From the NCBI GenBank assembly GCA_905221615.1, contig CAJNDT010005915.1, positions 189,501-253,500 of the forward strand: 64,000 nucleotides of DNA. Direction: 5' to 3'. Made by a program: the position numbers and the translations under genes. The DNA comes from Symbiodinium sp. CCMP2592 (taxonomy: Eukaryota > Sar > Dinophyceae > Suessiales > Symbiodiniaceae). The notes beneath the pieces are model-generated. The model was not told the DNA's origin, did not search any database, and worked only from the letters and a program-made list of their open reading frames with translations. This document shows, one piece after another, positions 16,837-54,580 of this stretch (position 1 is its first letter; each line of letters starts with the position of its first letter).

Positions 16837-17169
16837 TCGCCGATTTGCTGTGCTGCACAGCCCTCTTCGGCTTGCAAAATCAGGAAATAAGAAATCCAGG
16901 GGCTGGATTTCTTATTTCCTTGGTTTTGGCAGCACCAAAAACCAGGAAATAAGACATCCAGCCCCTGGGTTTCATATTTCCTGGGTGTTGGGGGGGACCA
17001 AAACACAGGAAATAAGAAATCCAGCCCCTCGATTTCTTATTTCCTGTGTTTTTAGGACGCCCGCAAACCCAAGAAATAAGACATCAGCCCCTGGATTTCT
17101 TATTTCCTCTGCTTTTGGTCGAAATCCATATCAAATCTTCAACCTTCCGAAACTCTCGCCGATTTGCTG
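16837..17169. repeat. Cluster of four tandem palindromes between direct repeats
   Basis: Four copies of a 39-bp palindrome lie at 16882-16920 (perfect, 18-bp arms, 3-bp loop), 16944-16982, 17007-17045 and about 17071-17108, a 62-64 bp period. The arm is AGGAAATAAGAAATCCAG. The block is bracketed by a 14-bp direct repeat (TCGCCGATTTGCTG at 16837-16850 and 17156-17169). Arm fragments also occur near 16570 and 17445-17470. It resembles foldback/MITE-derived sequence or an intron-associated repeat. Confidence 0.9.
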
Positions 17170-36620: not shown

Positions 36621-36689
36621 ACAAGTATCAGTTGCACAGACCCGTCAACCGGCGACGTCGCGAGGTCGAGTTCCCTAAATTCTCTAATC

Positions 36690-37170
36690 ACTGCTTCCAT
36701 GCCTCGAATTTACAGAATGCGTGAGTTCCTGCAGACTCCCTAAATCCCTAAAGTCTTTACATACCCTAATTTCCAGCCCCATGTGTTGGTTTTAGCCCAT
36801 TGCCTAACTTTCCTGACTCCCAGCCAGGACCATGTGTTGGATTTAGGGAATTCCCTAAATTCCCTAAATTCCCTAATTTCCCTTAATTCCCTGAATTCCC
36901 TAAATTCCCTAATGCCCTAAATTCCCTAAATTCCCTAATTCCCTACCCCATCTGTTGGACTTGGGGAATTACCTAATTCCCTAAACTCCCTAAATTCCTT
37001 AAACCTAACCCTTATAGGGAATTCCCTAATTCCCTAAATTCCCTAAGTCCTTACCCCATGTGTTGGATCCAGGGAATTCCCTAAATTCCCAAATTCCCTA
37101 CCCCATGTGTTGGATATAGGGAATTCCCTATTTCCCTAAATTCCCTAAATTCCCTAAATTCCCTACCCAT
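36690..37170. repeat. Telomere-like CCCTAAATT array, forward orientation
   Basis: Many copies of the 10-bp unit AATTCCCTAA. They are interspersed with a second motif, CCCCATGTGTTGGATTTAGG, near 36780, 36830, 36950, 37050 and 37100. Confidence 0.9.
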
Positions 37171-37204
37171 GAACGGAAACCACTGAATCTGATCCATGGG
37201 GGTC

Positions 37205-37407
37205 AGAATTAAGGAATTTAGGGAATTTAGGGAATTTAGGGAATTTAGGGAATTTAAGGAATTTAGGGAATTTAGGGAATTTAGGGAAATAGGGAATTCC
37301 CTAAATCCAACACATGGGGTAGGGAATTAGGGAATTTAGGGAATTTAGGGGAATAGGGAATTCCCTAAATCCAATGGGTAGGGAATTAGGGAATTTAGGG
37401 AATTCAG
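37205..37407. repeat. Telomere-like TTTAGGGAA array, reverse orientation
   Basis: The same 10-bp unit in reverse complement (GGGAATTTAG), separated from the forward array by about 35 bp of unique sequence. The pair could fold back as a large imperfect hairpin. Confidence 0.9.
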
Positions 37408-37430
37408 GGTTGGTCTTGGGGGGGGGGCTA

Positions 37431-39099: not shown

Positions 39100-39104
39100 C
39101 CTTC
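39100..39104 (+). repeat. Target-site duplication, left (CCTTC)
   Basis: Five bases immediately before the 5' LTR, identical to 53399-53403 immediately after the 3' LTR. A 5-bp duplication is typical of copia integration. Confidence 0.85.
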
Positions 39105-39203
39105 TGTTTTGTATGTATTTGTACGTATGTCTACGGACCTACTGTTGCATTGGCTCAAGACAAAAAGGTGTGCGCAGTTTTGTGCTGTCGTGCACTAACT
39201 ATA
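39105..39203 (+). repeat. 5' LTR (99 bp)
   Basis: Begins TGTTTTGTATG and ends AACTATA. It matches 53300-53398 at 95 of 99 positions without gaps. It starts with TG but ends TA rather than CA. No TATA box was recognised. It contains TTGGCTCAAG (39150-39159), the last ten bases of the dinoflagellate spliced leader, possibly by chance. Confidence 0.9.
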
Positions 39204-39889: not shown

Positions 39890-41764
39890 AGCCCGTAGAG
39901 CTATAGAGGAAGCTAACAGCAATGCCAGGCGCCTTCGCGCAGTGGAAACTTCTGCCCGTCAGAGCGATGCATTGCGATCACATGAGGTCGCTGACATGTC
40001 AGCTCGGATGGATGAACTGATGAGGCAGCTTCAGGCCCAGCGTCAGCAGACTGAGGTATTGATTCAGCAAAATAGTGCTCTGAGCTCCAAGGTTCGTGAT
40101 TTCGAGGCTAGAGATGCTGCTTTGAAGATGCAAGAGGGAATCCCTATGGGCCTCCACCCAGTATTCCTGTTCACCGCATCTCCACTCCTAAGCACGGAGG
40201 TGACACTCCGACAGAACAGGCGTCGGACGCCGGAAGGCGAACCCCTCCGGAAGGTTCTAGTCCTGGTGGCGGTGGTGGCGGACCCGATGGTAATGGCCCC
40301 AGTGGCGGTGATGATGACCATGATCGTCACAATCGGAAGTCTAAGAAGGATAAGAAGCACAAGAAGAAGAAGTCGTGCAGGCGACGTAGGCGTGATCCTT
40401 CATCTTCCCCATCTAGTTCCAGCAGCAGCTCTGGTGATTCGAGTTCTTCCTCATCCCGCATTGATAAGAAGACTATGAAGAAGCTCCTTAAGCGGATGAG
40501 TGAAGCCGTTGGTGATCGTGGTGAGAAACCCGATAAGAAGGACAAGCCCAAGGTGAAAGAGGCTGAGAAGATCACCTTCCCCAAATTCCCACAGCCAGAA
40601 AGCTATAGGAATTGGAGGCTAAGGGTCCGTGAAGCGACCGTTGCCACATCCGATCGCCCTGATGATGCCTTTTCGTGGCTCTCCAAGGTTTGGGAGAAAG
40701 ACGTTAAGGAGGATGATCTTCGCGACCCGGAAGGGTTCGTCACCTTGGATGCTAAGGTTCTATCGGCGGTCACTAACATCCTGGAAGGGCCCTTTGCCAG
40801 ACAGGTCGATACCTTCAAGGAGCGAGAGGCAAATGCGGGGAGACTTGTTCGGGGGTCGCCAAGTGCTTTTCAAGTTGGACAATTTCTTCTCTATCAACGC
40901 ACAGCATGGTTCGAAGATCTCTTGTCAGTCAAGATGGTCAACGAGAAGCTTGAGACGTTCATGCATAACTTGGAAACTGGATTGTCAGCGATCCAGACTA
41001 CCCCAGATGAGAACTTCCTTGAGCCCTTGTTCCATAGGCAGATCAAGCGCTTTAAAGATCTCGCACATGACATCAACATCTATGAAAGGGCTACACCAGG
41101 GCAGCCAGAGAAGACCTACAAGTTTTTGTATGATGCGGCTACAAACTACTTGAGTCGCAAGCGTCTTGAACGCAACCGGGAACGGATTGCCAAGCAATAT
41201 GGTGCCGATGGGAAACCATCTGCCCCCGCTCCCAAGAAGAAGTTTGTCCCTAAGAGATTTTGGTTTGACTTCGTCCAGAACGGTAAGTGCAGCAAAGGAG
41301 ACAAGTGCAAGTACAAGCATGAAGTCCCTGAGCAGAGAGGCCGGTCGCATTCAAGAGGTGGAGGCCGCACTCGCTCGCCATCCGGCAACAACAATGACGG
41401 AAAGCCCAGAGAATGCAAGTTCTGGAAGAGTGGGCGGTGCAAGAAAGGCCAGGAAGTGCATGCACATTTCTCCACACAGGCAAGCCAAGCGCTGCTGCGA
41501 CGTCACAAGGCGGCTCTCAGGGGGGAAGACCAGGAAGCGCGGGCAGCAAAGGGAAAGGCAACAAAGGCCATCGTAAGTCGCGGTCCAACTCGAAGGGCTC
41601 TCAAGGGTCGAAGAACTCTAAGGGCAGCAAGGGTTCGGACAAGCGAAAGGGTCCTAAGCCTCCAAAGTTCCTGCTGCAGTCTGCATCCTAGGGGCATTGA
41701 TCGCCGCGGCATCGGGTACCCAAGCCGACGCTGCTTACGCATTCCGGAAAGATATGCCCGATAG
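39890..41764 (+). CDS. gag body: coiled coil, basic/Ser-rich linker, capsid-like region, CCCH fingers
   Basis: Coiled coil at 39890-40135 (MDELMRQLQAQRQQTEVLIQ), then a frameshift. From about 40140 the frame is open to 41764: Pro/Gly-rich, then Lys-rich, then a Ser-rich stretch, then a helical region (FPKFPQPESYRNWRLRVREA to NYLSRKRLERNRERIAKQYG) that corresponds to a copia-type gag core. Near 41266-41320 FVQNGKCSKGDKCKYKH resembles a CCCH finger, followed by Arg/Ser-rich sequence and a second start, CKFWKSGRCKKG (41414-41449). There the frame breaks and the final Cys and His appear in another phase (ACTFLH). Copia gag normally has a CCHC knuckle, so CCCH-like fingers are unusual. A Lys/Gly/Ser-rich tail (41500-41690) reads in the shifted phase. 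Confidence 0.7.
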
Positions 41765-42010: not shown

Positions 42011-42313
42011 TGCGGTTATGAATGTGACACAGAGTTTGGTTGCGACAAATGCATTCCCAAACACCTTGAAGCTACCTGTGTTGCAGCTACCAAAGCGGAA
42101 GCCCAGCAGCTCGACATCGAGTGGATCGCAGATACCGGCAGCGCACAGGACTTGGTGTCTCAGGGGGATCTCGGATCATTGAGAAGCCATCGTTCCCAAA
42201 ACCCAATCGGCGTCGTGAAGGCCAATGGGCCTAGCACGGCTGAGATTCAGTCCAACGTTGCGGTTCCTTCACTAGTCACTAGGCATAGACAGCCATCCAT
42301 ATGTGTTGCCTAG
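42011..42313 (+). CDS. Retropepsin-like protease, N-terminal half
   Basis: Open frame with GYECDTEFGCDKCIPKH, then WIADTGSAQDLVSQGDL at 42122-42175. DTGS (42131-42142) is the aspartic protease active-site motif. It ends at TAG after the frame has switched. The C-terminal half (VLPSTPSVLSVGYRCMEEG) continues at 42303 in another phase, implying a 1-nt shift near 42290. Confidence 0.75.
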   Translation, partial: CGYECDTEFGCDKCIPKHLEATCVAATKAEAQQLDIEWIADTGSAQDLVSQGDLGSLRSHRSQNPIGVVKANGPSTAEIQSNVAVPSLVTRHRQPSICVA

Positions 42314-43676
42314 CACGCCTTCTGTTCTATCCGTGGGTTACAGATGCATGGAGGAAGGGTTCGATTTCGTTTGGAGATCGGGTACCAGACCCTACTTTCA
42401 GTGGCCTAGCGGTGAGCGGATCTACATGGATGTGAAGGATTACGTCCCCTACCTCAAGTCTTGGAAGGAAGGTGTGGCGGTACCTGCGAGGCGGAAGCCC
42501 CTGCCTAAGGATGATCAGAAGACTGATCTGGTTCTTTCGCTTGAAGAGGCTGAGGGATATGCAAGGGAACTTCGGATCAATGGCGACTTTCGTCTGGGAT
42601 CGTGTTACAAACTTTTGAGATTGACTCCGTTCAAGCCAACAGGGAATTCGAGGAGAATGAAAGCTACTGAGAATGACGACTCGGTTGAAGATGAAGTTGG
42701 CAGGGATTACATAATCATTGGTGCTTGGACTTTCAGCGGGATGACTGGGGTCACAAAGTCTGTTGATCGTCATGCTCAGCTGATCAAGTACCTGATCGCC
42801 TTCATGAAGTCAAGAGGGTTGAAAGATACCTTTACGTCCATCTGCGTCAACCACGGTGGCAATCGCAAAGTTCATCGAGATTTGTTGAATCATGACAACT
42901 CGCTCAATCACACTCTAGGTGTTGGGAGCTCTCAAGGTGGATCCGTTTGGGTTGAGCAGAAGGATGGATTTCCCGTATTTCGCAGAGAAGGTGTAGCTGG
43001 TGGAAAGTCGAAGTGCGTCAAGGTTACGGGGGGGCTTGAAGTCAATGGGAGAGTCTATGACACTCATGATCGAATGTTATCCTTCCACCCCAAGCTTTGG
43101 CATCAGGCACAGCCTTGGACAGGTGATCGATGGACCATCACGGCATATACCATTCGGGATGTAGATGGTTTGAGCTGGGAACAATCTAAGTCATTGATGT
43201 CGCTAGGGTTTCAGTTGAATTCGGCAAGACGTTTACCTTTTGTTCCATCTTTGATCACCGGCGACAGCGATGAAGGGCTCACCATGTACGACTTCGCAAA
43301 GAAGAAGAAGAAGGCTGAAGCTGAGAAAGCTAAGGTTCCTGAACCAGCGCCTCCGTTGATGAAGAGTAAGGCCAAGTCTAAGCCCAGTAAGCCTGATGCC
43401 GGGCGGAAGCCTGAGCCCGCGCCTGCTGAGGGTGCTGACATGTCTGATCTTTTTGATATGGAGGATCATTTCGATGAAGCCGGGGAGTTGAAAAATGCTG
43501 AGGATCAGCCACCTCCTCCTCCTGTTCCCGCTGAGGCAAGCAAGCTTTCGAAAGGAGAGAAGGTTTTACGCGAAGAAGCTAAGAGTAAACATCATCTGAT
43601 GACCCACGTTCCGAAGAATCCCGTGCCAGACAGGAAAGATGTTCAAGCCGCCTTCGTATCAAACGAATGGTTCTAG
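42303..43676 (+). CDS. Protease C-terminus plus 2OG-Fe(II) oxygenase-like domain
   Basis: The 457-codon frame opens with the protease tail (residues 1-60: SVLSVGYRCMEEGFDFVW then YVPYL). Residues 95-290 resemble a double-stranded beta-helix dioxygenase: HRD at 191-193 (iron-binding H-x-D), GGSVWVEQ, then FHPKLWHQAQPWTGDRWTIT with the distal His at 267 and an Arg at 276. The 9-residue spacing fits the 2-oxoglutarate-binding Arg. Residues 330-430 are Lys/Pro-rich linker. HHLMTHVPKNPV near the end matches the HH half of the integrase HHCC zinc motif, after which the frame shifts. An enzymatic domain between protease and integrase is not a standard copia component. Substrate and activity are unknown. 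Confidence 0.7.
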   Translation: MLPSTPSVLSVGYRCMEEGFDFVWRSGTRPYFQWPSGERIYMDVKDYVPYLKSWKEGVAVPARRKPLPKDDQKTDLVLSLEEAEGYARELRINGDFRLGSCYKLLRLTPFKPTGNSRRMKATENDDSVEDEVGRDYIIIGAWTFSGMTGVTKSVDRHAQLIKYLIAFMKSRGLKDTFTSICVNHGGNRKVHRDLLNHDNSLNHTLGVGSSQGGSVWVEQKDGFPVFRREGVAGGKSKCVKVTGGLEVNGRVYDTHDRMLSFHPKLWHQAQPWTGDRWTITAYTIRDVDGLSWEQSKSLMSLGFQLNSARRLPFVPSLITGDSDEGLTMYDFAKKKKKAEAEKAKVPEPAPPLMKSKAKSKPSKPDAGRKPEPAPAEGADMSDLFDMEDHFDEAGELKNAEDQPPPPPVPAEASKLSKGEKVLREEAKSKHHLMTHVPKNPVPDRKDVQAAFVSNEWF

Positions 43677-44223
43677 GTTCATTGAGGCTGAGAATTTCGG
43701 CGACCATCTTACTGGGGATCATTTCATCGTCTACCGTGACAACGAGGAAGAGATTAGGGATTCGCGGTTAGCTTGGGTCATGAAGGACGTGGCAACAGGT
43801 TTCCTCGCGGCATACCCCTCCGGACGGAAGTCCCAGGACGAGTGCTACAAGGCGCTCAACCATTTCGTTGCTAACAATGAAGATGTTGGCATCTTCTGCA
43901 GTGACAATGCTCCTGAGATCAATGGGGCAGTAGAAGAAATGGGTTGGAAGCATGAGCATTCTAAGGCCTACATCCACCAGTCTAATGCCATGGCTGAGCG
44001 TGCAATCAGGACTGTGACGGAAGGCACCAGAGCAAATCTGGAGCAAGCTGGCCTGGCTCATGTTTACTGGCCTCATGCTTTACAACATGCTTGTGTTGCT
44101 CACAACATAAGTCATCCCAACGGTACGAAGTACTCATCATGGACATTGCGTTTTGGCAAGGACCTTCCATGGGCCGTTGATTCCGTTTGGATGCCGAGTA
44201 GACTATTGGGTCGGTACTCGTGA
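43639..44223 (+). CDS. Integrase catalytic core
   Basis: DDE-type integrase core: GDHFIVYRDNEEEIRDSR with the first acidic position, CSDNAPEINGAVEEMG (second Asp), and NAMAERAIRTVTEGTR (catalytic Glu). These are spaced as in retroelement integrases. The upstream zinc-binding CxxC reads CQTG here, so the HHCC motif is damaged. The frame is lost near 44160-44215 and continues in the overlapping frame. Confidence 0.85.
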   Translation: MFKPPSYQTNGSRFIEAENFGDHLTGDHFIVYRDNEEEIRDSRLAWVMKDVATGFLAAYPSGRKSQDECYKALNHFVANNEDVGIFCSDNAPEINGAVEEMGWKHEHSKAYIHQSNAMAERAIRTVTEGTRANLEQAGLAHVYWPHALQHACVAHNISHPNGTKYSSWTLRFGKDLPWAVDSVWMPSRLLGRYS

Positions 44224-44749
44224 ACAGCGGAAGCTACAAGGGTATGAAAGATTTGAGAGTTCATCAGAACATGGAATCTATATGGGTTATCACTTCCAAT
44301 CAGGAATGCGCTGGCGAGAAGAGATGTCGGTGGTTCCAATATCAAAGCTTAATGGAAGTGATTTCTACGAATACCACAAGCCCATTAAGGTACATCAGTT
44401 GAAAGTGCCCGATGGTGAGTTCACTTTCCCCATGATCGACCGTTACAACCGTGTCCGAGATGGGCTAGCGCATGATGCCATTGAAAAGCCTGTCGTTGAA
44501 TCTCTGAGAAATCAGGATGCGGAAGCAGTCGTTGAACCTCCTGGGGACGGTGAGGCTAAAGTAGAAGTACCCAAAGTTATTGATCCCAAATCAGGTGACC
44601 TCGTGGAAATGCCCGAAGGCGACCGTTACTACGACTCCGGTGGAACTCTTGGTAGAAGATACGGAGGGTCTAGGGTTCAAAGAAGCCGGACAGCATTCCT
44701 TCTCATATATGGGTTAACTTGTCCAAGAGGCAGAAAGATAAGGCGATAG
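44153..44749 (+). CDS. Integrase C-terminal region and linker
   Basis: Continuation in another phase: PLIPFGCRVDYWVGTREQRK, then SEHGIYMGYHFQSGMRW, the copia-type post-core region with its G-x-x-x-GY feature. An acidic Pro/Val-rich linker follows (residues 100-170). The frame shifts again near 44700 into the reverse-transcriptase frame. Confidence 0.75.
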   Translation: MARTFHGPLIPFGCRVDYWVGTREQRKLQGYERFESSSEHGIYMGYHFQSGMRWREEMSVVPISKLNGSDFYEYHKPIKVHQLKVPDGEFTFPMIDRYNRVRDGLAHDAIEKPVVESLRNQDAEAVVEPPGDGEAKVEVPKVIDPKSGDLVEMPEGDRYYDSGGTLGRRYGGSRVQRSRTAFLLIYGLTCPRGRKIRR

Positions 44750-46734
44750 CGGAGGAAGCAGCGAAGATCGCTAGGGAACATCATGAAGGCGCCGATCGAG
44801 CAGGTGGTGGATCGTCAAGTTCAAGGCCTGCTGCACCGCTTGGGGCTTCCCGTGATCGATGGAAAATTAAAGGCAACAAGTTGATACGGTACCATTGTGT
44901 CCCTAGGCGAGAGCTGTTCTCCCCTGATATCACCGATTGTCCCGTTCCTACTTCCAGGGTCAAGCCTACCAGAATATTGCAGATCATCCCTGTGGGAACT
45001 GAGGACACTGTCGCTGATGAAGATGATTGGACAAACCCACGTAGAAGGAATAAGAAATTACATTTTAGATGGACCGGTAAAACCATCTTCGAGATCCTGC
45101 CATTGGGTACTAGCAGTGCTCATTTCGTGGTGGAGCCCTTTCCGACTATGCCAACGATCCCGTGTAACGGTGAACATCGAGAGAAGATTGGTCATGATCG
45201 TCAGTTCACACAATCTGAGCTGGAAGTTATTATGGCACTAGTAGCTCGTCCAGTTGGCAAGAAGGAGCTCGCGGAGAATAGTGATGCCCAGAAATCGCTC
45301 GACGTTGAGTGGGACAAGCTTATGCAAAAGCGAGCCTGGGATATGGATAACCCACGGGAATGGTCAGAGATCTCGGCGGAAGCCGTCAGACGGTGTCGCA
45401 AGGCTCATGTCGGACGTGCTTTCGAAATCTGGGTAGAAAAGGGAAGCGAACTCCCTAAAGGAAATCCCCTGAGGAAATTCAAAGGCCGGACGGTCTTTCA
45501 GGGTAACAATGTCCAGGACGAAAGCAGCAATGCCGCCTTATTCTCTGAGCTAGGATCAAGTCCTGCTTCGATGGAGGCTGGCAAGGTGCTGGATGCGTAT
45601 GGGTCCCAGCCTGGTTTCGCCTGTGAACAGGCCGACGGTAAGCAAGCTTACACTCAGACGACGTTGAAAGGTGCCGAAACTTGGGTTCGATTGCCAAGGG
45701 AGCGGTGGGCTAAGTCCTGGGTTAATAAGTTCAAGGATCCGGTCGTTCGGCTTTATCTTGCGCTGTATGGACACCCTGATTCGGGGGGCTTCTGGGAGAA
45801 GCATTGTGAGCAGAGACTCAAACAAGTGGGTTTTGATCTTCTGTTTCCTTCTTCATGGCCTTCGGTTTTCTTCCATCCTAAGCTTCGCCTACTATTAGCT
45901 GTCTATGTTGATGATTTCAAGATGGCTGGACCTGCCGAGAACATGCAGGAAGGGTGGAAGCTGATCGGGTCCAAGATTGACATGGACAGCCCGACTCCAC
46001 TTGGAAGATACCTGGGGTGTGAACATGTTGAGAAGAAGAAAGTTCAACTGGGAACAGCTGACCATCCCTTTGCCCACATCTTCGACAAAAGCATTCCTGA
46101 CCCTGCAGCCAAACCGTCGGTCCCGGCTACATCCCAGGATTACACGGAGTACTATCCTGATGAAGGTGTCATTGTGCGCCATCATATGCAGCCTCGCAAA
46201 GCTAAGTATGCTGTTAGCGCTGCGGAAGCAGACGTCCTGAACATCGGCGATCTACGATTGACCGAACGTCAGCTTCTTGGAAGTACTTCTCCAGAAGAAC
46301 AATGGGATGATGGTTTCCGGGGGGGCAAGGCTTCAGGACTTTGGACGGGAACCACTTATCTGTTTGATCGTGGTCTTGACAAGCATCATGCCGTGGCTGC
46401 TGTTAAATGCATTCGTGACAAGAACACTGCAAAGAAGGAAGCTAGAAAACAGGCTTTCTATGACATCAGCCAGCTATCTGACGGCAAGGGATGCATGAAT
46501 AAACCCGTCAGCATCATCGAGTATGACATGAAATCATTTCTTGAACAAGCTGTACAAAAGTACAAGGACCTTGCTGGCCCCAAGTACCACACCCTTAAGT
46601 CAGCCTCCACTCCGTTCGTCGACGAGAAGATCGCGAGGCCCATCGACGATGAGGCCGAGGCAAAGTGTGAGTTGGCGCCTATCGCTAGCCGAGTTCTGAT
46701 GAAGCTTTTCTTTGCTGCCAGGATGGCTCGTTAA
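44719..46734 (+). CDS. Reverse transcriptase (copia type)
   Basis: A 671-codon frame. After a linker, RT motifs appear in order: SLDVEWDKLMQKRAWD, FKGRTVFQGNNVQDE, ACEQADGKQAYTQTTLKG (first catalytic Asp region), LYLALYGHPDSGGFWEKH, and LAVYVDDFKMAG with YVDD at 45904-45915 (residues 396-399). The thumb and connection end at LMKLFFAARMAR and a TAA (46732-46734). RNase H continues in the same phase, so this stop is a point mutation within one polyprotein frame. Confidence 0.93.
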   Translation: MSKRQKDKAIAEEAAKIAREHHEGADRAGGGSSSSRPAAPLGASRDRWKIKGNKLIRYHCVPRRELFSPDITDCPVPTSRVKPTRILQIIPVGTEDTVADEDDWTNPRRRNKKLHFRWTGKTIFEILPLGTSSAHFVVEPFPTMPTIPCNGEHREKIGHDRQFTQSELEVIMALVARPVGKKELAENSDAQKSLDVEWDKLMQKRAWDMDNPREWSEISAEAVRRCRKAHVGRAFEIWVEKGSELPKGNPLRKFKGRTVFQGNNVQDESSNAALFSELGSSPASMEAGKVLDAYGSQPGFACEQADGKQAYTQTTLKGAETWVRLPRERWAKSWVNKFKDPVVRLYLALYGHPDSGGFWEKHCEQRLKQVGFDLLFPSSWPSVFFHPKLRLLLAVYVDDFKMAGPAENMQEGWKLIGSKIDMDSPTPLGRYLGCEHVEKKKVQLGTADHPFAHIFDKSIPDPAAKPSVPATSQDYTEYYPDEGVIVRHHMQPRKAKYAVSAAEADVLNIGDLRLTERQLLGSTSPEEQWDDGFRGGKASGLWTGTTYLFDRGLDKHHAVAAVKCIRDKNTAKKEARKQAFYDISQLSDGKGCMNKPVSIIEYDMKSFLEQAVQKYKDLAGPKYHTLKSASTPFVDEKIARPIDDEAEAKCELAPIASRVLMKLFFAARMAR

Positions 46735-47940
46735 GATTTACTTCGGGCTGTCCAGGGATTGGCTAGCAGAGTAACCAAGTGGTCTGCTGAATGCGATCGG
46801 GCTCTTCGCCGTTTGATGTGTTATGTCAATGCCACTCTTGACTTGAAGTTGAGGGGATTCATCGGTGACCCGTTTGACCAGTGCAAGATTAGGTTGTTTG
46901 CGGATGCAGATCATGCTGGTGAACATGATAACAAGAGCACATCAGGATGCTTCGAAGCTTTGGTAGGGCCCAGCACGTACTTTCCTTTGGCGGCTTACAG
47001 CAAGAAGCAAACCTCAATTTCGATCAGTTCTACCGAGTCCGAGGTCGTTTGCGCAAACATAGCTTTGAGGACTGTTGGTTTGCCATCCTCCGCTTTATGG
47101 AGTGTGCTCCTGAAGGGGGGTTCAGACGCATCAGAGCCGTGCGCACCCCGGAAGGGAGATGCCTGTGCCTGTTTGGCCAAATTTCCAGATCAGGATGTAG
47201 CTTCTCAGGTGCCAAAGACCGGTAGACATGAACTTATTGATTGTCGAGTAGCTGTTCTTTCAGGCGGTGATAGCATACCTGAACCCGTTGAGCTTTCATC
47301 CCATCCTCTTCGAGATGTGTGGTTGCTCCGGGGGGACAAATGGTCCAGAACAGAAGAAGCTGTTGCTTGGGAAGAGCTCGAGGATGCCTCCTACATGGTT
47401 CCGAAGGATGCTAAAGCCATTCTGTGCCTGTACCGGAAGTCATCATTGGAGTATCGTCGCTCTGCGGAAGCAGAAGCCGAATTGAATTATGAGGCTTACA
47501 AGCTCCGTCATGGACCTGGCGACTTCGAGTACACCGATGATGCAAAGATCAGATCCGAACATTCATTGATCATGCCCGCGCCACATTGCATGCAACCTGT
47601 GATGTTGGAAGATAACCAGGCCACTATTAGGATCATGGAGTCCGGGAGATCACCAGCATTTAGGCACACTGTTAAAACCCAAAGAATCAATCTCGGATGG
47701 GTATCGGAACAGTTCAGGAGGAAACACTATGACCTCGCGTACATTAGTACCTTGTTGCAGTCTGCCGACATATTGACTAAGCCATTTACCAACATTGACA
47801 AATGGAAGAGAGCGATTCTCCTCATTGGCCATGTCTATGTCAAACCATCGAGGCCTGCTTCGCCGATCGTCTTGCCTGACAACCTCGAGAAGAGGATCGA
47901 GCCCGAGAACAACGGGGTTCGGGACATGATCCGTCGATAA
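46735..47940 (+). CDS. RNase H domain with a large internal insertion
   Basis: In phase with the reverse transcriptase. Numbering from 46759, the copia RNase H landmarks are FADADHAGEHDNKSTSG (49-63), SSTESEV (90-96), LEDNQATIRI (283-292) and SADILTKPF (335-343). The E and D motifs are normally about 50 residues apart. Here about 190 separate them because of a roughly 140-residue insert (about 120-275). The insert contains CACLAKFPDQDV, VWLLRGDKWSRTEEAVAWEE and a Glu/Ala-rich helix; I do not recognise it. The core motifs on both sides are intact. Confidence 0.85.
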   Translation, partial: DLLRAVQGLASRVTKWSAECDRALRRLMCYVNATLDLKLRGFIGDPFDQCKIRLFADADHAGEHDNKSTSGCFEALVGPSTYFPLAAYSKKQTSISISSTESEVVCANIALRTVGLPSSALWSVLLKGGSDASEPCAPRKGDACACLAKFPDQDVASQVPKTGRHELIDCRVAVLSGGDSIPEPVELSSHPLRDVWLLRGDKWSRTEEAVAWEELEDASYMVPKDAKAILCLYRKSSLEYRRSAEAEAELNYEAYKLRHGPGDFEYTDDAKIRSEHSLIMPAPHCMQPVMLEDNQATIRIMESGRSPAFRHTVKTQRINLGWVSEQFRRKHYDLAYISTLLQSADILTKPFTNIDKWKRAILLIGHVYVKPSRPASPIVLPDNLEKRIEPENNGVRDMIRR

Positions 47941-48551: not shown

Positions 48552-49088
48552 ATGGCCTTTGAAGAACCTGCGTATTTCAAAGACGCATACGGGACCATCA
48601 AGGAGGCGTACCAGTACAAGCTGGTGGAGCCTACGGAGTCTGATCCGCCAGAGGCCCTCTTTCTCGGCGAGTGGATTGGTCTGCGGAAGCAGTACCCGTA
48701 CGCAGGATTCCAATTCCCTCTCCTGTACGAGATGTGGCACCGCCACCTTAACAGCCCAGCTCATCAGGGAATGCCGGTTGAGGGCTTTGAGTCCCATGGT
48801 GATTCCCTCCTGACGGAGTGGACTGAACTTGTGAAGTCCTACCTCCGTGATCTGGCTTATGTGGGGCATGCCACAAATGCAGAGAGGGCGCTCAAGGCAA
48901 CGGAGCCGTTTGATGTGTGCCATCGGGCATACGTGCTATCGCAGGAGACTCTTGGGTATCGTGAGTTGATGCCGGCAGCAACTGCGTTGCTTCACACGGT
49001 TTACACGCCTGCCCTGCGCCGCATTGAGCACCAGGAATGCCCAGCTCCTACTTCATCATTGGGGGCGACAGTTCCTTGGCCTTGGTAA
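48552..49088 (+). CDS. Retroelement downstream ORF B, unknown
   Basis: 178 codons from ATG, mostly helical and rich in aromatic residues (YPYAGFQFPLLYEMWHRHLN, HRAYVLSQETLGYRELMPAA). The end overlaps the next frame by about 50 bp. The phase change near 49030-49050 suggests the two were once one protein. The function is unknown. Confidence 0.5.
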   Translation: MAFEEPAYFKDAYGTIKEAYQYKLVEPTESDPPEALFLGEWIGLRKQYPYAGFQFPLLYEMWHRHLNSPAHQGMPVEGFESHGDSLLTEWTELVKSYLRDLAYVGHATNAERALKATEPFDVCHRAYVLSQETLGYRELMPAATALLHTVYTPALRRIEHQECPAPTSSLGATVPWPW

Positions 49089-49866
49089 CGAGAGATGGCG
49101 GTCGCGTCCAAATGAAAGGGACGATGGAACCGTCACTCCGGGAGGAGATGACCAAGGACATCCGCATGGATGGGTGCTCAGTCGTTATGCGCTGGGGAAA
49201 GGGGCTGGGAGATATCGTGTGGCACGTGGAGCAAGAGCTCAACCGAGTCCAGAAGTGGATGAAGGGGCAGGAACCGCTCGCACCGGAAGGTGTCGACATT
49301 ATCATCCAGTGGGGTGGTAATGACGTCTATGGCGAGTATGGTTACAAGGGCTTTTCCTTCCACATGCGCAATGCCTGGGTTCGTGTTGACGATGCGTTGC
49401 ATGACACGCTTTCCAGTTGGGACACAAAGGCACTCAAGGCTGTCGAAGACGCGAAAGATGCCTTGGTTCGCCTCTCATCCCGGAAAGGAGTGTCCTCAGT
49501 GACGCTTGTTGCTGGCCCCCACAACAGGGAATTCTATGGTCTGCCCGACCCGAGGTCTATGACCTGGAAATGGCCCGCCACACCGACGAGGTGAAGGACC
49601 GAGGCATCAGAATCGTCGACCCACAGGCCCTCATCCTCGCGACGGAGCGTTATGATAACTTCCATATGGAAGCTACCCATGACAACGTGAAGGTCACCGC
49701 CAACTGGTTCTTTCACCTTTGCTCGGCCATCATGTTCGAGCGATGGTTGGTGAAGCACGCGATGGAGCTAAAGGCCAATTCGCGCGGCATCCTCTTTCAC
49801 AACCATTTTCATCTCGGACTCGGCTTGGAAGAGCTCGACATCCCTCCTACCACGGACATTTGCTGA
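49037..49866 (+). CDS. SGNH/GDSL-hydrolase-like domain (frameshifted)
   Basis: The frame at 49037-49594 reads YFIIGGDSSLALVTRDGG with GDS at residues 10-12 (block I nucleophile), MRWGKGLGDIVW with a block II-like Gly, and DIIIQWGGNDVYGEYG with GGND at 93-96 (block III Asn). A 1-base shift near 49545 moves the protein to the frame ending at 49866. There ERYDNFHMEATHDN supplies D-x-x-H (D at 49654, H at 49663), matching block V. All four SGNH blocks are therefore present in order. The family includes esterases and lipases. Some non-LTR retrotransposons carry esterase-type domains in ORF1, but the role in this element is unknown. Confidence 0.6.
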
Positions 49867-50304
49867 TTCCGGCAGAGGCCGAGCAGGTGACCTTTCCACC
49901 TGAGGCGCCGCCTATCCAGCGCTTCCCCGAGGAGGAGATTGTCCTCAATCAGCCGATCCTCAGCTTGGAAAAGCTTGACGAGCTCGAGGGTGTACCGCCT
50001 CTACTGACTACGTCAACGAAGTGGCGAAGGAGTCAGAGGAGCTCACGGTGGAAGACATGGTGTCTCGCAATCCAAATCCGGAGGACGAGCACCTCACCGT
50101 GGAAGCGGTCGACCCCGGCTCGGAGATGGAACAGATCGTTCGCAATATGATCGAGTCTGTGAACCTGGTCATGACGGATCAAGAGGCAGAAGAGGTCGCC
50201 CAGGAGAAGGGTGTTGCTCCCTATGAGTTTGTTGAGCCCAATGTCACAGCCACATCTGTCGTGGATGGTGAGGCAGTTTCTACGATTGCCACATCTCTGG
50301 TCCG
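49860..50304 (+). CDS. Acidic linker between hydrolase-like and phosphotransferase-like domains
   Basis: Two more phase changes. 49866-50010 reads HLLIPAEAEQVTFPPEAPPI then EIVLNQPILSLEKLDELEGV. 50021-50300 reads SEELTVEDMVSRNPNPEDEH then GSEMEQIVRNMIESVNLVMT. Acidic and Pro-rich, probably disordered. Confidence 0.5.
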
Positions 50305-51416
50305 ATGGCTGTTGATTATGGCACAGACGATGTTGAGGAGCATCCCCGTGGGAGCGGTGGACCCATCTGGCTTACGCCAGAGCAGCTGCCTGATGTCAAG
50401 GGTCGCATGGGTTACTTTCGTCTCACTGAGATGGAGTGTGTTTCGTTGGGCAAGAAGCTGTCGTGGCACTTGCGTGGGCACGCCAAGGACAAGGGATTTC
50501 GCACTGTGGAGTTCGACGAAGAACAGGCTGCAGAGATCGGCGATGTTTTGAAGGTTATCAGCAAGCAATGGTCCCGCCTGACGGTGATGACCATCATTGA
50601 CCTCTTGACGTCCGATCACTGCGACAAAGGCCGGTTCGAACTCCAGGCGGAAGCCTTGGACGAGGATACGCGGTTAGGCCGGGGCACGAACTGGCACTTC
50701 ACCCGTATCAGAGCCTGGTCCAAGGCCACAACGCCTGCCTGCTCGTCCTCGACAGCGATCCGCTGAAGATCACTGTCAAGCAGTGGGCCTTCGACGACAA
50801 TTGGACCCCTTCCAAAACTGAGCTCCCGCTCACGGGGCCCTACCCGTACCGGGCAACGGCATTCGATGTTATGCCGAAGCTGGCCTATCACGCCACCTAT
50901 TGGCGTAACTTCACAAAGATTGTGAACTCTGGCCTCATCCCGGGAGGGAAGATGACGTCGAAGGGGAACAGCGGAAGGCCCTTCAACATGTTTGCGCTGG
51001 AGCCGCAATGGGACAACCAAGGTGCCCGCCCAGGTGCCCAGCTCGAGTTCGTCATCGACTTGCAGCTCGCTGCGTGCGACGGCTGCCGATTCTTTGAGAC
51101 CAAGGCTGGAGCACTTCAGACACCGGATTGGGTGAGCAACCGGGCCATTCTGTATGCCTATGATCGGTCGACCCAGGAGATGATTTGGGCTAGCCGGGCA
51201 TACGAACCAGCGCAGAAGCGCTTGGCGCAGGCGTGCAAAGACAAGAGCCCCAACACGCCAATATACGGCGAGCGGGGTCACCAGGAGCTGATTGACGCGA
51301 ATGGCTATTGCTACAACTTCATATTGTGGCAGGCCGGGGGTATCGCAACTTCAAAACCTGGAAGGACGCTGCTAAGGCATGCAAGGACGTCTATGACCTG
51401 GAGTTCTTTCCGATGA
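50305..51416 (+). CDS. Tpt1/KptA-like RNA 2'-phosphotransferase domain (frameshifted)
   Basis: The frame at 50305-50766 has LGKKLSWHLRGHAKDKGF (cf. LSxxLRHxA at the start of Tpt1/KptA) and DKGRFELQ (107-114; cf. the D-K-x-R-F-x-L winged-helix end). After a 1-base shift near 50700 the other frame reads SLVQGHN (cf. IRAxQGHS), then LAYHATYWRNFTKIVNSGLI (cf. YHGTxxxxxxxIxxxGL), continuing to 51330. Canonical Tpt1 removes the 2'-phosphate from spliced tRNA using NAD+. Several usual active-site residues differ here: the LRH His, the RAxQGH Arg and the GRxHxH motif. It may be altered or inactive. About 150 residues of alpha/beta sequence follow (FVIDLQLAACDGCRFFETKA). Confidence 0.6.
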
Positions 51417-53299: not shown

Positions 53300-53398
53300 T
53301 GTTTTGTATGTATTTGTACGTATGTCTACGGACATACTGTTGCATTGGCTCAGGACAAAAAGGTGTGCGCAGTTTTGTGCTGTCGGGCATTAACTATA
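53300..53398 (+). repeat. 3' LTR (99 bp)
   Basis: Partner of 39105-39203, with four substitutions and no gaps. Confidence 0.9.
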
Positions 53399-53403
53399 CC
53401 TTC
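53399..53403 (+). repeat. Target-site duplication, right (CCTTC)
   Basis: Identical to 39100-39104. Confidence 0.85.
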
Positions 53404-53424: not shown

Positions 53425-53525
53425 GGAATTCCATAAATTCCCTAAATTCCCTCATCCCTAATCCACCGAAAAGAATTTAGGGAATTCCATAAATTCCTGA
53501 AACCTTAACCCCATGTAGGGAATTG
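53425..53525. repeat. CCCTAAATT-type repeats at the right flank of the retroelement
   Basis: AATTCCCTAAATTCCCTCATCCCTAATCC and a reversed GAATTTAGGG, then ACCCCATGTAGGGAATT as in the 36.7-37.4 kb array. This shows the element split a pre-existing array. Confidence 0.75.
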
Positions 53526-53665
53526 AGCCGGCTTGAAATTCAAGCCGGTTTCACGCCGTTCAAGCCGGCCAGGTGTGGATGAGCCCGGCTTGAGATTGCT
53601 GAGTAGCGAGCAGATGGCTTCAAATGGCTAGTGAAGCTTCGATGCGGGACTGGGTGGCTTGAAAT

Positions 53666-54126
53666 GGCTTGAAACCGGCTTGAGTTTCAAGCCGGCCCAC
53701 CGAAGATTCAAGATACCCCAGAAGATTTTGACAGGAATCTTCAATCTTGGATGGGCCGGCTTGAAATTCAAGCCGGTTTCAAGCCATTTCAAGCCGCGCA
53801 GTTCCAAACCCACCCGGCTTGAAATGGTTTGAAACCGGCTTGAATTTCAAGCCGGCCCATCGAGGATTGAAGATTTCCGTAAAAACTTTCTGGGGCATCT
53901 TGAATCTTGCATCTTCAACCCTCGATGGGCCGGCTTGAAATTCAAGCCGGTTTCAAGCCATTTCAAGCCGGGTGGGTTTGGAACTGCGCGGCTTGAAATG
54001 GCTTGAAACCGGCTTGAATTTCAAGCTGGCCCATCCAAGAGTGAAGATTCCTGTCAAAACTTTCTGGGGCATCTTGAATCTTGAATCTTCGGTGGGCCGG
54101 CTTGAAACTCAAGCCGGTTTCAAGCC
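53666..54126. repeat. 461-bp near-perfect palindrome with nested palindromes
   Basis: Left arm from GGCTTGAAACCGGCTTGAG at 53666; right arm ends at 54126 with its reverse complement; centre near 53896. The arms contain several copies of GCCGGCTTGAAATTCAAGCC, itself palindromic, alternating with a GAAGATTCAAGAT stretch. More half-copies lie at 53527-53650. No coding role. Confidence 0.85.
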
Positions 54127-54129
54127 GTC

Positions 54130-54580
54130 TCCAGGACCTTGAGACAGACAGGGCACGGAATCAAAAAACAAAAGTTTGGGCAACAGCAAAAGAGATTACT
54201 TCGTCTGCGATCGGCAGGGGCAGGACACACCAGACTCAGACACACAGGACTCAGAGCCCAAACAGGCGGATAACTCGGGGGGGTACCATATATATGTATC
54301 TCTCTCGATCTCTTTCTTTCAGTATATCTACACAATACAAATACAGACACGTGTCACTTGTCTCGGACTTCGCTCACTCATGCTGCGGAATGGTGCTCTT
54401 CTCTGGGAACATGATGAGAGTCATTCGGCTACAGCTGGAGGGCAGGCTCAGGTCGTGAACGTGTCTGTCACAAGAAGAAAAGGAGAATGGCATAGCAGTA
54501 CCTTTTCTGCAATTCGACTGGTACTTCCATCATCTCGCGCCGAAGCTCTGTGACAGTTCCTCAGCGATCGCACGGCCGAA
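54130..54580. other. Spacer with a short (AT)n/poly-G junction
   Basis: A GGGGGGGTACCATATATATG junction near 54278-54297 resembles those at 34.7 and 37.4 kb. Otherwise nothing was recognised. Confidence 0.4.

Follow-up and report, generated by a model that had tools for sequence, protein, structure and literature searches.

A predicted 2-oxoglutarate/Fe(II) oxygenase domain within Ty1/copia-type polyproteins of Symbiodinium

Does a retroelement polyprotein of Symbiodinium sp. CCMP2592 include a 2-oxoglutarate (2OG)/Fe(II) oxygenase, and if so, on what would it act? The question is raised by a frame of 457 residues (42303-43676, +) in the window, by which we mean the whole stretch of 64,000 nucleotides that was analysed. 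The first-pass annotation, made from the letters alone, proposed that residues H191, D193, H267 and R276 of this frame belong to an oxygenase-like domain between the protease and the integrase of an LTR element. All four were confirmed in the frame, at 42873-42875, 42879-42881, 43101-43103 and 43128-43130, respectively. The window copy alone would have left the oxygenase reading a guess. Its full-length frame gave no Pfam match at E 1, and the copy cut to the domain matched PF13640 (2OG-FeII_Oxy_3) at 16.6 bits (E 0.016), below the cut-off of 27.

The window element and its relatives

The frame lies in a damaged 14.3-kb element, which is assigned to the Ty1/copia type because its reverse transcriptase frame (44674-46731, +) matches RVT_2 (PF07727, E 2.8e-8, 34.1 bits, cut-off 31.6; the scan began at 44719). 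The element is bounded by 99-bp LTRs (39105-39203 and 53300-53398, both +) that pair with four differences in 99 bp, the 5' LTR starting with TG. The same five bases, CCTTC, lie beyond both outer ends (39100-39104 and 53399-53403); paired LTRs and a target-site duplication were seen for this copy, a member of family A (see below), only. Between the LTRs, all on the forward strand, we found a Gag-like frame with a CCCH zinc finger (40475-41764 including the stop codon; PF18345 zf_CCCH_4, E 2.7e-7, 30.9 bits, cut-off 29), a DTGS motif without Pfam match that we take to be that of an aspartic protease (42131-42142), the oxygenase domain (42540-43256, residues 80-318 of its frame), an integrase-like frame recognised by eye (43603-44220; Pfam at E 1 gave nothing for the frame 43639-44220), the reverse transcriptase and an RNase H-like frame, also by eye and without Pfam match at E 1 (46735-47937). 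The window copy is broken, in that the DTGS motif, the oxygenase and the integrase-like stretch occupy three different frames.

Several other features of the window were observed. The LTRs are only 99 bp long for an element of 14.3 kb. The 5' LTR contains TTGGCTCAAG, the last ten bases of the spliced-leader pattern, and the 3' LTR is one base off. The 21-base dinoflagellate spliced leader occurs 429 times in the 1.098-Gb assembly (217 forward, 212 reverse; reversed control, 0), which makes a dinoflagellate host very likely, and is absent from the window when up to 3 mismatches are allowed. Inside the LTRs and downstream of the RNase H-like frame, two overlapping frames (50272-50763 and 50601-51413, +) match the halves of PF01885 (Tpt1/KptA, RNA 2'-phosphotransferase; model parts 4-68 and 97-175) at E 0.002 and 0.00039, both below the cut-off. 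A frame at 49028-49591 (+), to which Pfam has no match at E 0.5, carries GGDSS and GGND motifs and by eye resembles SGNH hydrolases. Outside the element, imperfect repeats, both inverted and direct, form clusters at 53524-54134, 36671-37409 and 16874-17120.

A protein search of the 1.098-Gb genome returned at least 99 matches (93 of 6455 candidates scored), which grouped at about 92%, 42% and 40% identity and were designated families A, B and C. Open frames of 1,500-4,886 residues hold many of these matches, and others fall in frames that are shorter or broken. Searches with a family C query and with a query from a second class of retroelement, described below, returned at least 150 matches each (4785 and 5089 candidates, respectively), in many diverged groups. 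By sequence patterns, no relatives were found in viral contigs or prokaryote genome contigs, and none in phages by tblastn.

For six copies (L009-L014), pieces of 8.7-9.9 kb were retrieved. A single stop-free frame spans the CCCH finger, the oxygenase and RVT_2 in three of the six (L011, L012 and L014); in the pieces of L009, L010 and L013 it is broken into two parts. RVT_2 scored 36 bits in the long frame of L012, above the cut-off, and 26.9 bits in those of L011 and L014, below 31.6. The L012 frame carries DTGS at position 951, the oxygenase motif VHKD at 1194, an integrase-like stretch at about 1461 (by eye) and YVDD at 2226. Because all of these stand in one frame, the oxygenase is part of the polyprotein, and the proposed order of protease, oxygenase and integrase is supported. 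In Pfam the integrase stretch matched SH3_retrovirus only (E 0.018); protease, integrase and RNase H were assigned by eye. Upstream of 96 of 101 scored copia reverse transcriptase matches (2132 candidates) there is an oxygenase match on the same strand, at a distance of 2.3-3.4 kb in 93 cases; the other five have none among the coordinates compared. Judged by sequence, the polyproteins of several copia-type families regularly include the oxygenase module, between protease and integrase.

The copia type was also considered for three further families, D, E and F, and found no support; in family D, a Tpt1/KptA domain stands near the expected site of RVT_2. The match is in locus L098 (G000:C106:20600-21900), at residues 223-410 of frame 1-1299 (36.8 bits, cut-off 26, E 5.3e-9), some 2.4 kb downstream of the oxygenase and roughly at the place that RVT_2 occupies in families A-C. 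Family E has an integrase-like stretch by eye, without a Pfam match.

Conservation and family assignment of the domain

The domain was extracted from 66 loci, the window and 65 that were fetched. One with six stops (L025) was dropped, which left 65 open rows, 51 of them distinct; L014 was unused, being the same copy as L002, and the rows of L026 and L027 come from copies broken elsewhere. Nine columns are invariant across all 65 rows: H191, D193, N196, N202, G213, W216, H267, G274 and R276. The four residues named at the outset are all among them, a positive result for their conservation in related elements; by chance this would occur with P = 6.2e-6, taking 150 as a round figure for the aligned columns. 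Because many rows are near-identical copies, the weight of the conservation rests on the diverged families, the distant ones being 21-37% identical to the window copy. In the window, the iron motif H191-x-D193 and N196 at D+3 read HRDLLN (42873-42890, +), and the distal H267 and R276, presumed to be 2OG-binding, are spaced by +9 in HQAQPWTGDR (43101-43130, +). Six residues beyond R276 is Y282 (43146-43148, +), a position with Y in 56 rows and F in nine.

The ratio dN/dS over the domain was 0.03-0.17 in 12 of 14 pairs, consistent with purifying selection; the exceptions were L082/L083 (0.37, with 9 nucleotide differences) and L010/L012 (saturated). Along the frames of two pairs it was 0.01-0.12, which places the oxygenase under constraint similar to that on the other parts. 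Compared with family C, families A and B have reverse transcriptases of 68-73% identity (65-77% for some partial copies) and oxygenases of 35-49% identity. The reverse transcriptase being the more alike, the oxygenase therefore changes faster outside its fixed residues.

Four copies with 33-37% identity to the window copy (L010, L011, L012 and L016), scanned singly as domains, all exceeded the PF13640 cut-off (27.2-28.4 versus 27 bits). Within whole long frames PF13640 was found in L011 only, at 22.3 bits and below the cut-off, L012 and L014 being unlisted. Nine of 11 members matched PF13640 at E<=10 (best 3.2e-6), and the domains of families B and C match it rather than Tet_JBP (PF12851), to which the window copy has no match either. 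When 22 diverse members were scanned at E 0.1, six matched Tet_JBP, three PF13640 and none AlkB. The family D domain has no Pfam match, and those of E and F matched Tet_JBP at chance level (E 0.08 and 0.16). NCBIfam gave no match, and PHROGs matches to seven families (the best, DNA endonuclease V, at E 0.013 with 5 of 11 members) were taken as chance. The proposal of a 2OG/Fe(II)-oxygenase-like domain is thus supported, since relatives of the window copy are recognised by Pfam's curated 2OG oxygenase models. With these matches and the invariant residues in hand, we regard the domain as very probably of the 2OG oxygenase type, and its fold would be the double-stranded beta-helix of such enzymes.

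The suggestion that the domain might be AlkB-like fared otherwise. PF13532 was matched by none of 11 members at E<=10 and by none of 22 at E<=0.1, and profile A1 aligned by hhalign with host AlkB homologues over the first half only (E 0.34); membership of AlkB was rejected. Host genes of the two kinds (L029-L049) are represented by 36 listed genome matches to 2OG-FeII_Oxy_3 and 13 to AlkB. The PF13640 genome search that gave the 36 (from 37 candidates) returned none at the known element copies, which it presumably missed at first look. Profile A1 aligned with the host PF13640 genes at E 0.051, the HxD, GG, H and R positions coinciding; the superfamily motifs are the same, and the profile similarity of the host PF13640 and AlkB genes to the element domain is weak.

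Against PDB, the best matches of the second-class profile A2 were TET2 chains, at a nonsignificant E of 1.1-1.2, with a LysR regulator next (1.4). In this alignment (E 1.1) AHRDTHNL stands in register with AHRDLHNM of TET2, and LHATLP with LHATTP. Profiles A1 and A5 had no PDB match at E 10, and profile A6 matched 3v9f only (E 0.97). Profile A7 matched 3v9f at E 2.5e-5, an anti-CRISPR protein at 0.38 and TET2 at 1.1-1.2. We rejected 3v9f as a structural relative, since the match is a repeat artefact made of eight weak pieces, the best at E 5.6.

Further inspection of the fixed residues bears on the TET/JBP comparison. The N at D+3 after HxD, present in 65 of 65 rows and in the AHRDLHNM of the TET2 chain, is one that we take to define TET/JBP enzymes (HRDLHN in TET2). 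We also take it that N1387, Y1902 and H1904 of TET2 touch the base and that H1904 reads cytosine. The counterparts of N1387 and Y1902 are N196 and Y282, and that of H1904 is I284 in the window and other residues elsewhere. The H1904 counterpart is not kept, and 5-methylcytosine as the substrate is therefore not implied. On these comparisons the oxygenase appears nearer to TET/JBP than to AlkB, the TET/JBP likeness itself being weak. We call it TET/JBP-like and do not file it as a TET/JBP member, because the PF12851 cut-off of 34.9 bits is reached by no second-class member (best, 29.6 bits).

The domain in a second class of retroelement

Of 155 candidates from a Tet_JBP profile search of the genome, 150 were scored and at least 30 matched at E<=0.01, the best of them at 29.6 bits; these are repeats in open frames. 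In a protein scan the second-class domain matched PF12851 at E 3.6e-6 (26.7 bits). The order in this class is a Gag-like frame with a cysteine/histidine cluster, the oxygenase, a methyltransferase-like stretch and a weak RVT_1 match, followed downstream by a YDD motif and an RNase H-like tail (both by eye). The RVT_1 matches have E values of 0.00032-0.006, in four frames of L070, L066 and L068, none above the cut-off. The methyltransferase-like stretch, whose motifs were recognised by eye, directly follows the oxygenase and reads EVFSG...APPCGTASRARE...LENP. By eye, such a stretch likewise follows the oxygenase in another subfamily (L085 with L097), where Pfam gave one chance-level match only; no DNA methylase family in Pfam matches the methyltransferase-like stretches.

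We also observed that in three of four copies (L050, L055 and L057, of which L065, L070 and L067, respectively, are longer pieces) the Gag-like and oxygenase parts share one reading frame, with a stop codon between them. A frame break takes its place in the fourth copy, L051. The stop codon in these RVT_1-type elements is perhaps read through.

The second-class and copia-type oxygenases matched each other by BLASTP at 62 bits (E 6e-17) and by hhalign at 98.3% (E 2.2e-14). As a control the query was shuffled 500 times; 490 shuffles gave a match, none above 23.9 bits. As far as such alignments can tell, the oxygenase domains of both element classes are homologous, that is, related by descent. 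A maximum-likelihood tree of 31 rows, rooted at the midpoint, resolved two groups, each with 100/100 support: 14 rows of families A-F and 17 of the second class. Several long branches in this tree were flagged, and their placement is unsure.

Candidate activity, rival explanations and 5-hydroxymethyluracil

The domain is likely to be active in the open-frame copies, and a pyrimidine in nucleic acid is its somewhat favoured substrate. We propose as the best overall explanation that the copia polyprotein includes a 2OG oxygenase that oxidises a pyrimidine in nucleic acid, and we give this a probability of about 0.55. In such a scheme the element protease would cut the polyprotein, and the oxygenase, released or still tethered, would have integrase and reverse transcriptase as neighbours in the particle or pre-integration complex. 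Fe(II) would be bound via H191, D193 and H267 and 2OG via R276, and the methyl group of thymine or 5-methylcytosine may be hydroxylated in TET/JBP fashion, in element cDNA or in integrated copies. The oxidised pyrimidine could then mark or unmark element DNA against host silencing, which would be the benefit to the element.

A rival reading is a protein hydroxylase (prolyl, lysyl or asparaginyl, of the PHD/P4H kind) whose target would be Gag, capsid or a host factor. In its favour, the family matched by copia members, PF13640, takes in protein and small-molecule hydroxylases, P4H/PHD-like enzymes among them; the H-to-R spacing of +9 fits such enzymes, and the host PF13640 genes align with all four motifs in register. 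That alignment is weak at E 0.051, however, the second class prefers Tet_JBP, and the invariant N at D+3 and the methyltransferase-like neighbour favour nucleic acid, so that we hold protein hydroxylation to be a minor, if genuine, possibility. An AlkB-type demethylase clearing m6A or alkyl damage from element RNA would have the closest functional precedent on an LTR element, an orchid Gypsy oxygenase that demethylates m6A in vitro (PMC9289625). Against it stand the lack of PF13532 matches and the half-length alignment with host AlkB homologues described above, and we think it rather improbable.

That the domain is a former enzyme, now a structural or spacer part of the polyprotein, would agree with the differences among families in most columns beyond the nine. 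Four catalytic positions unchanged in every open row, across families only distantly identical to the window copy, argue against such a loss, which seems to us very improbable. That H, D, H and R came together by chance in an ordinary linker might be suspected from the window copy, which by itself falls below the Pfam cut-offs, but this is scarcely credible beside relatives above the PF13640 cut-off, the Tet_JBP match, the homology between two element classes and the conservation itself. Pyrimidine oxidation remains the reading that we prefer, and we compare it with known systems.

The first-pass annotation called a dioxygenase module in an LTR-element polyprotein not standard. This holds, with a precedent in print for an oxygenase on such an element: a Ty3/Gypsy retrotransposon of the orchid Phalaenopsis encodes an AlkB-type 2-ODD oxygenase in a separate frame (PMC9289625). 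Both are LTR retrotransposons with a 2OG/Fe(II) oxygenase kept through amplification. The orchid element, however, is a Gypsy element with PF13532 AlkB in ORF2, and the element here is of Ty1/copia type with the domain inside the polyprotein between protease and integrase; in the portion of that study drawn on here, plant Copia-type elements showed no domain gain (PMC9289625). The dinoflagellate domain also differs from the orchid AlkB in being PF13640- and TET/JBP-like and in occurring in several diverged families. Fungal DNA transposons carry TET/JBP dioxygenases, and the consulted part of the report found no retrotransposon doing so (PMC12730594, Kojima 2025). The likeness lies in an oxygenase on mobile elements that is passed between element lineages; the fungal carriers are DNA transposons, whereas ours are retrotransposons whose TET/JBP likeness is below the Pfam cut-off (PMC12730594).

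Dinoflagellate retroelements with a DNA-modifying domain are themselves known, since Symbiodinium retrotransposons carry cytosine methyltransferases (PMC5890265). Those elements have a methyltransferase, not an oxygenase; Copia elements were without any DNMT domain, and the main text, as far as it was covered, does not mention oxygenase, 2OG, TET or AlkB (PMC5890265). Kinetoplastid JBP1 and JBP2, which make 5-hydroxymethyluracil (5-hmU) in DNA, are 2OG oxygenases that possess an HxD motif along with a critical Arg (PMC11065753). They share the 2OG oxygenase motifs, a likeness drawn from their description, and are not described as element-borne in the part of that source used here (PMC11065753). 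We found no report of dinoflagellate retroelements with this oxygenase domain in the literature covered, subscription papers being mostly outside its scope. Oxygenases on mobile elements are thus already known; here the domain is within the retroelement polyprotein of the copia type and in a second class.

In dinoflagellate DNA, 5-hmU replaces 12-70% of thymine; TET-family enzymes in general are given as its likely source, the account used here not naming the dinoflagellate enzyme (PMC6723414). In Breviolum minutum, 5-hmU is enriched over most repeats except some LINEs and most strongly over Maverick (PMC11071213). The enrichment fits a role of repeats, its strongest signal being on a DNA element and not on copia. 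It is conceivable, though we think it unlikely, that retroelements are one source of 5-hmU, their TET/JBP-like oxygenases hydroxylating thymine in their own and neighbouring DNA, and that the enrichment over repeats reflects this. If the proposed activity is true, retroelements would carry base-modifying chemistry within the very protein that copies and integrates their DNA, and the families found here are concrete candidates for expression and assay.
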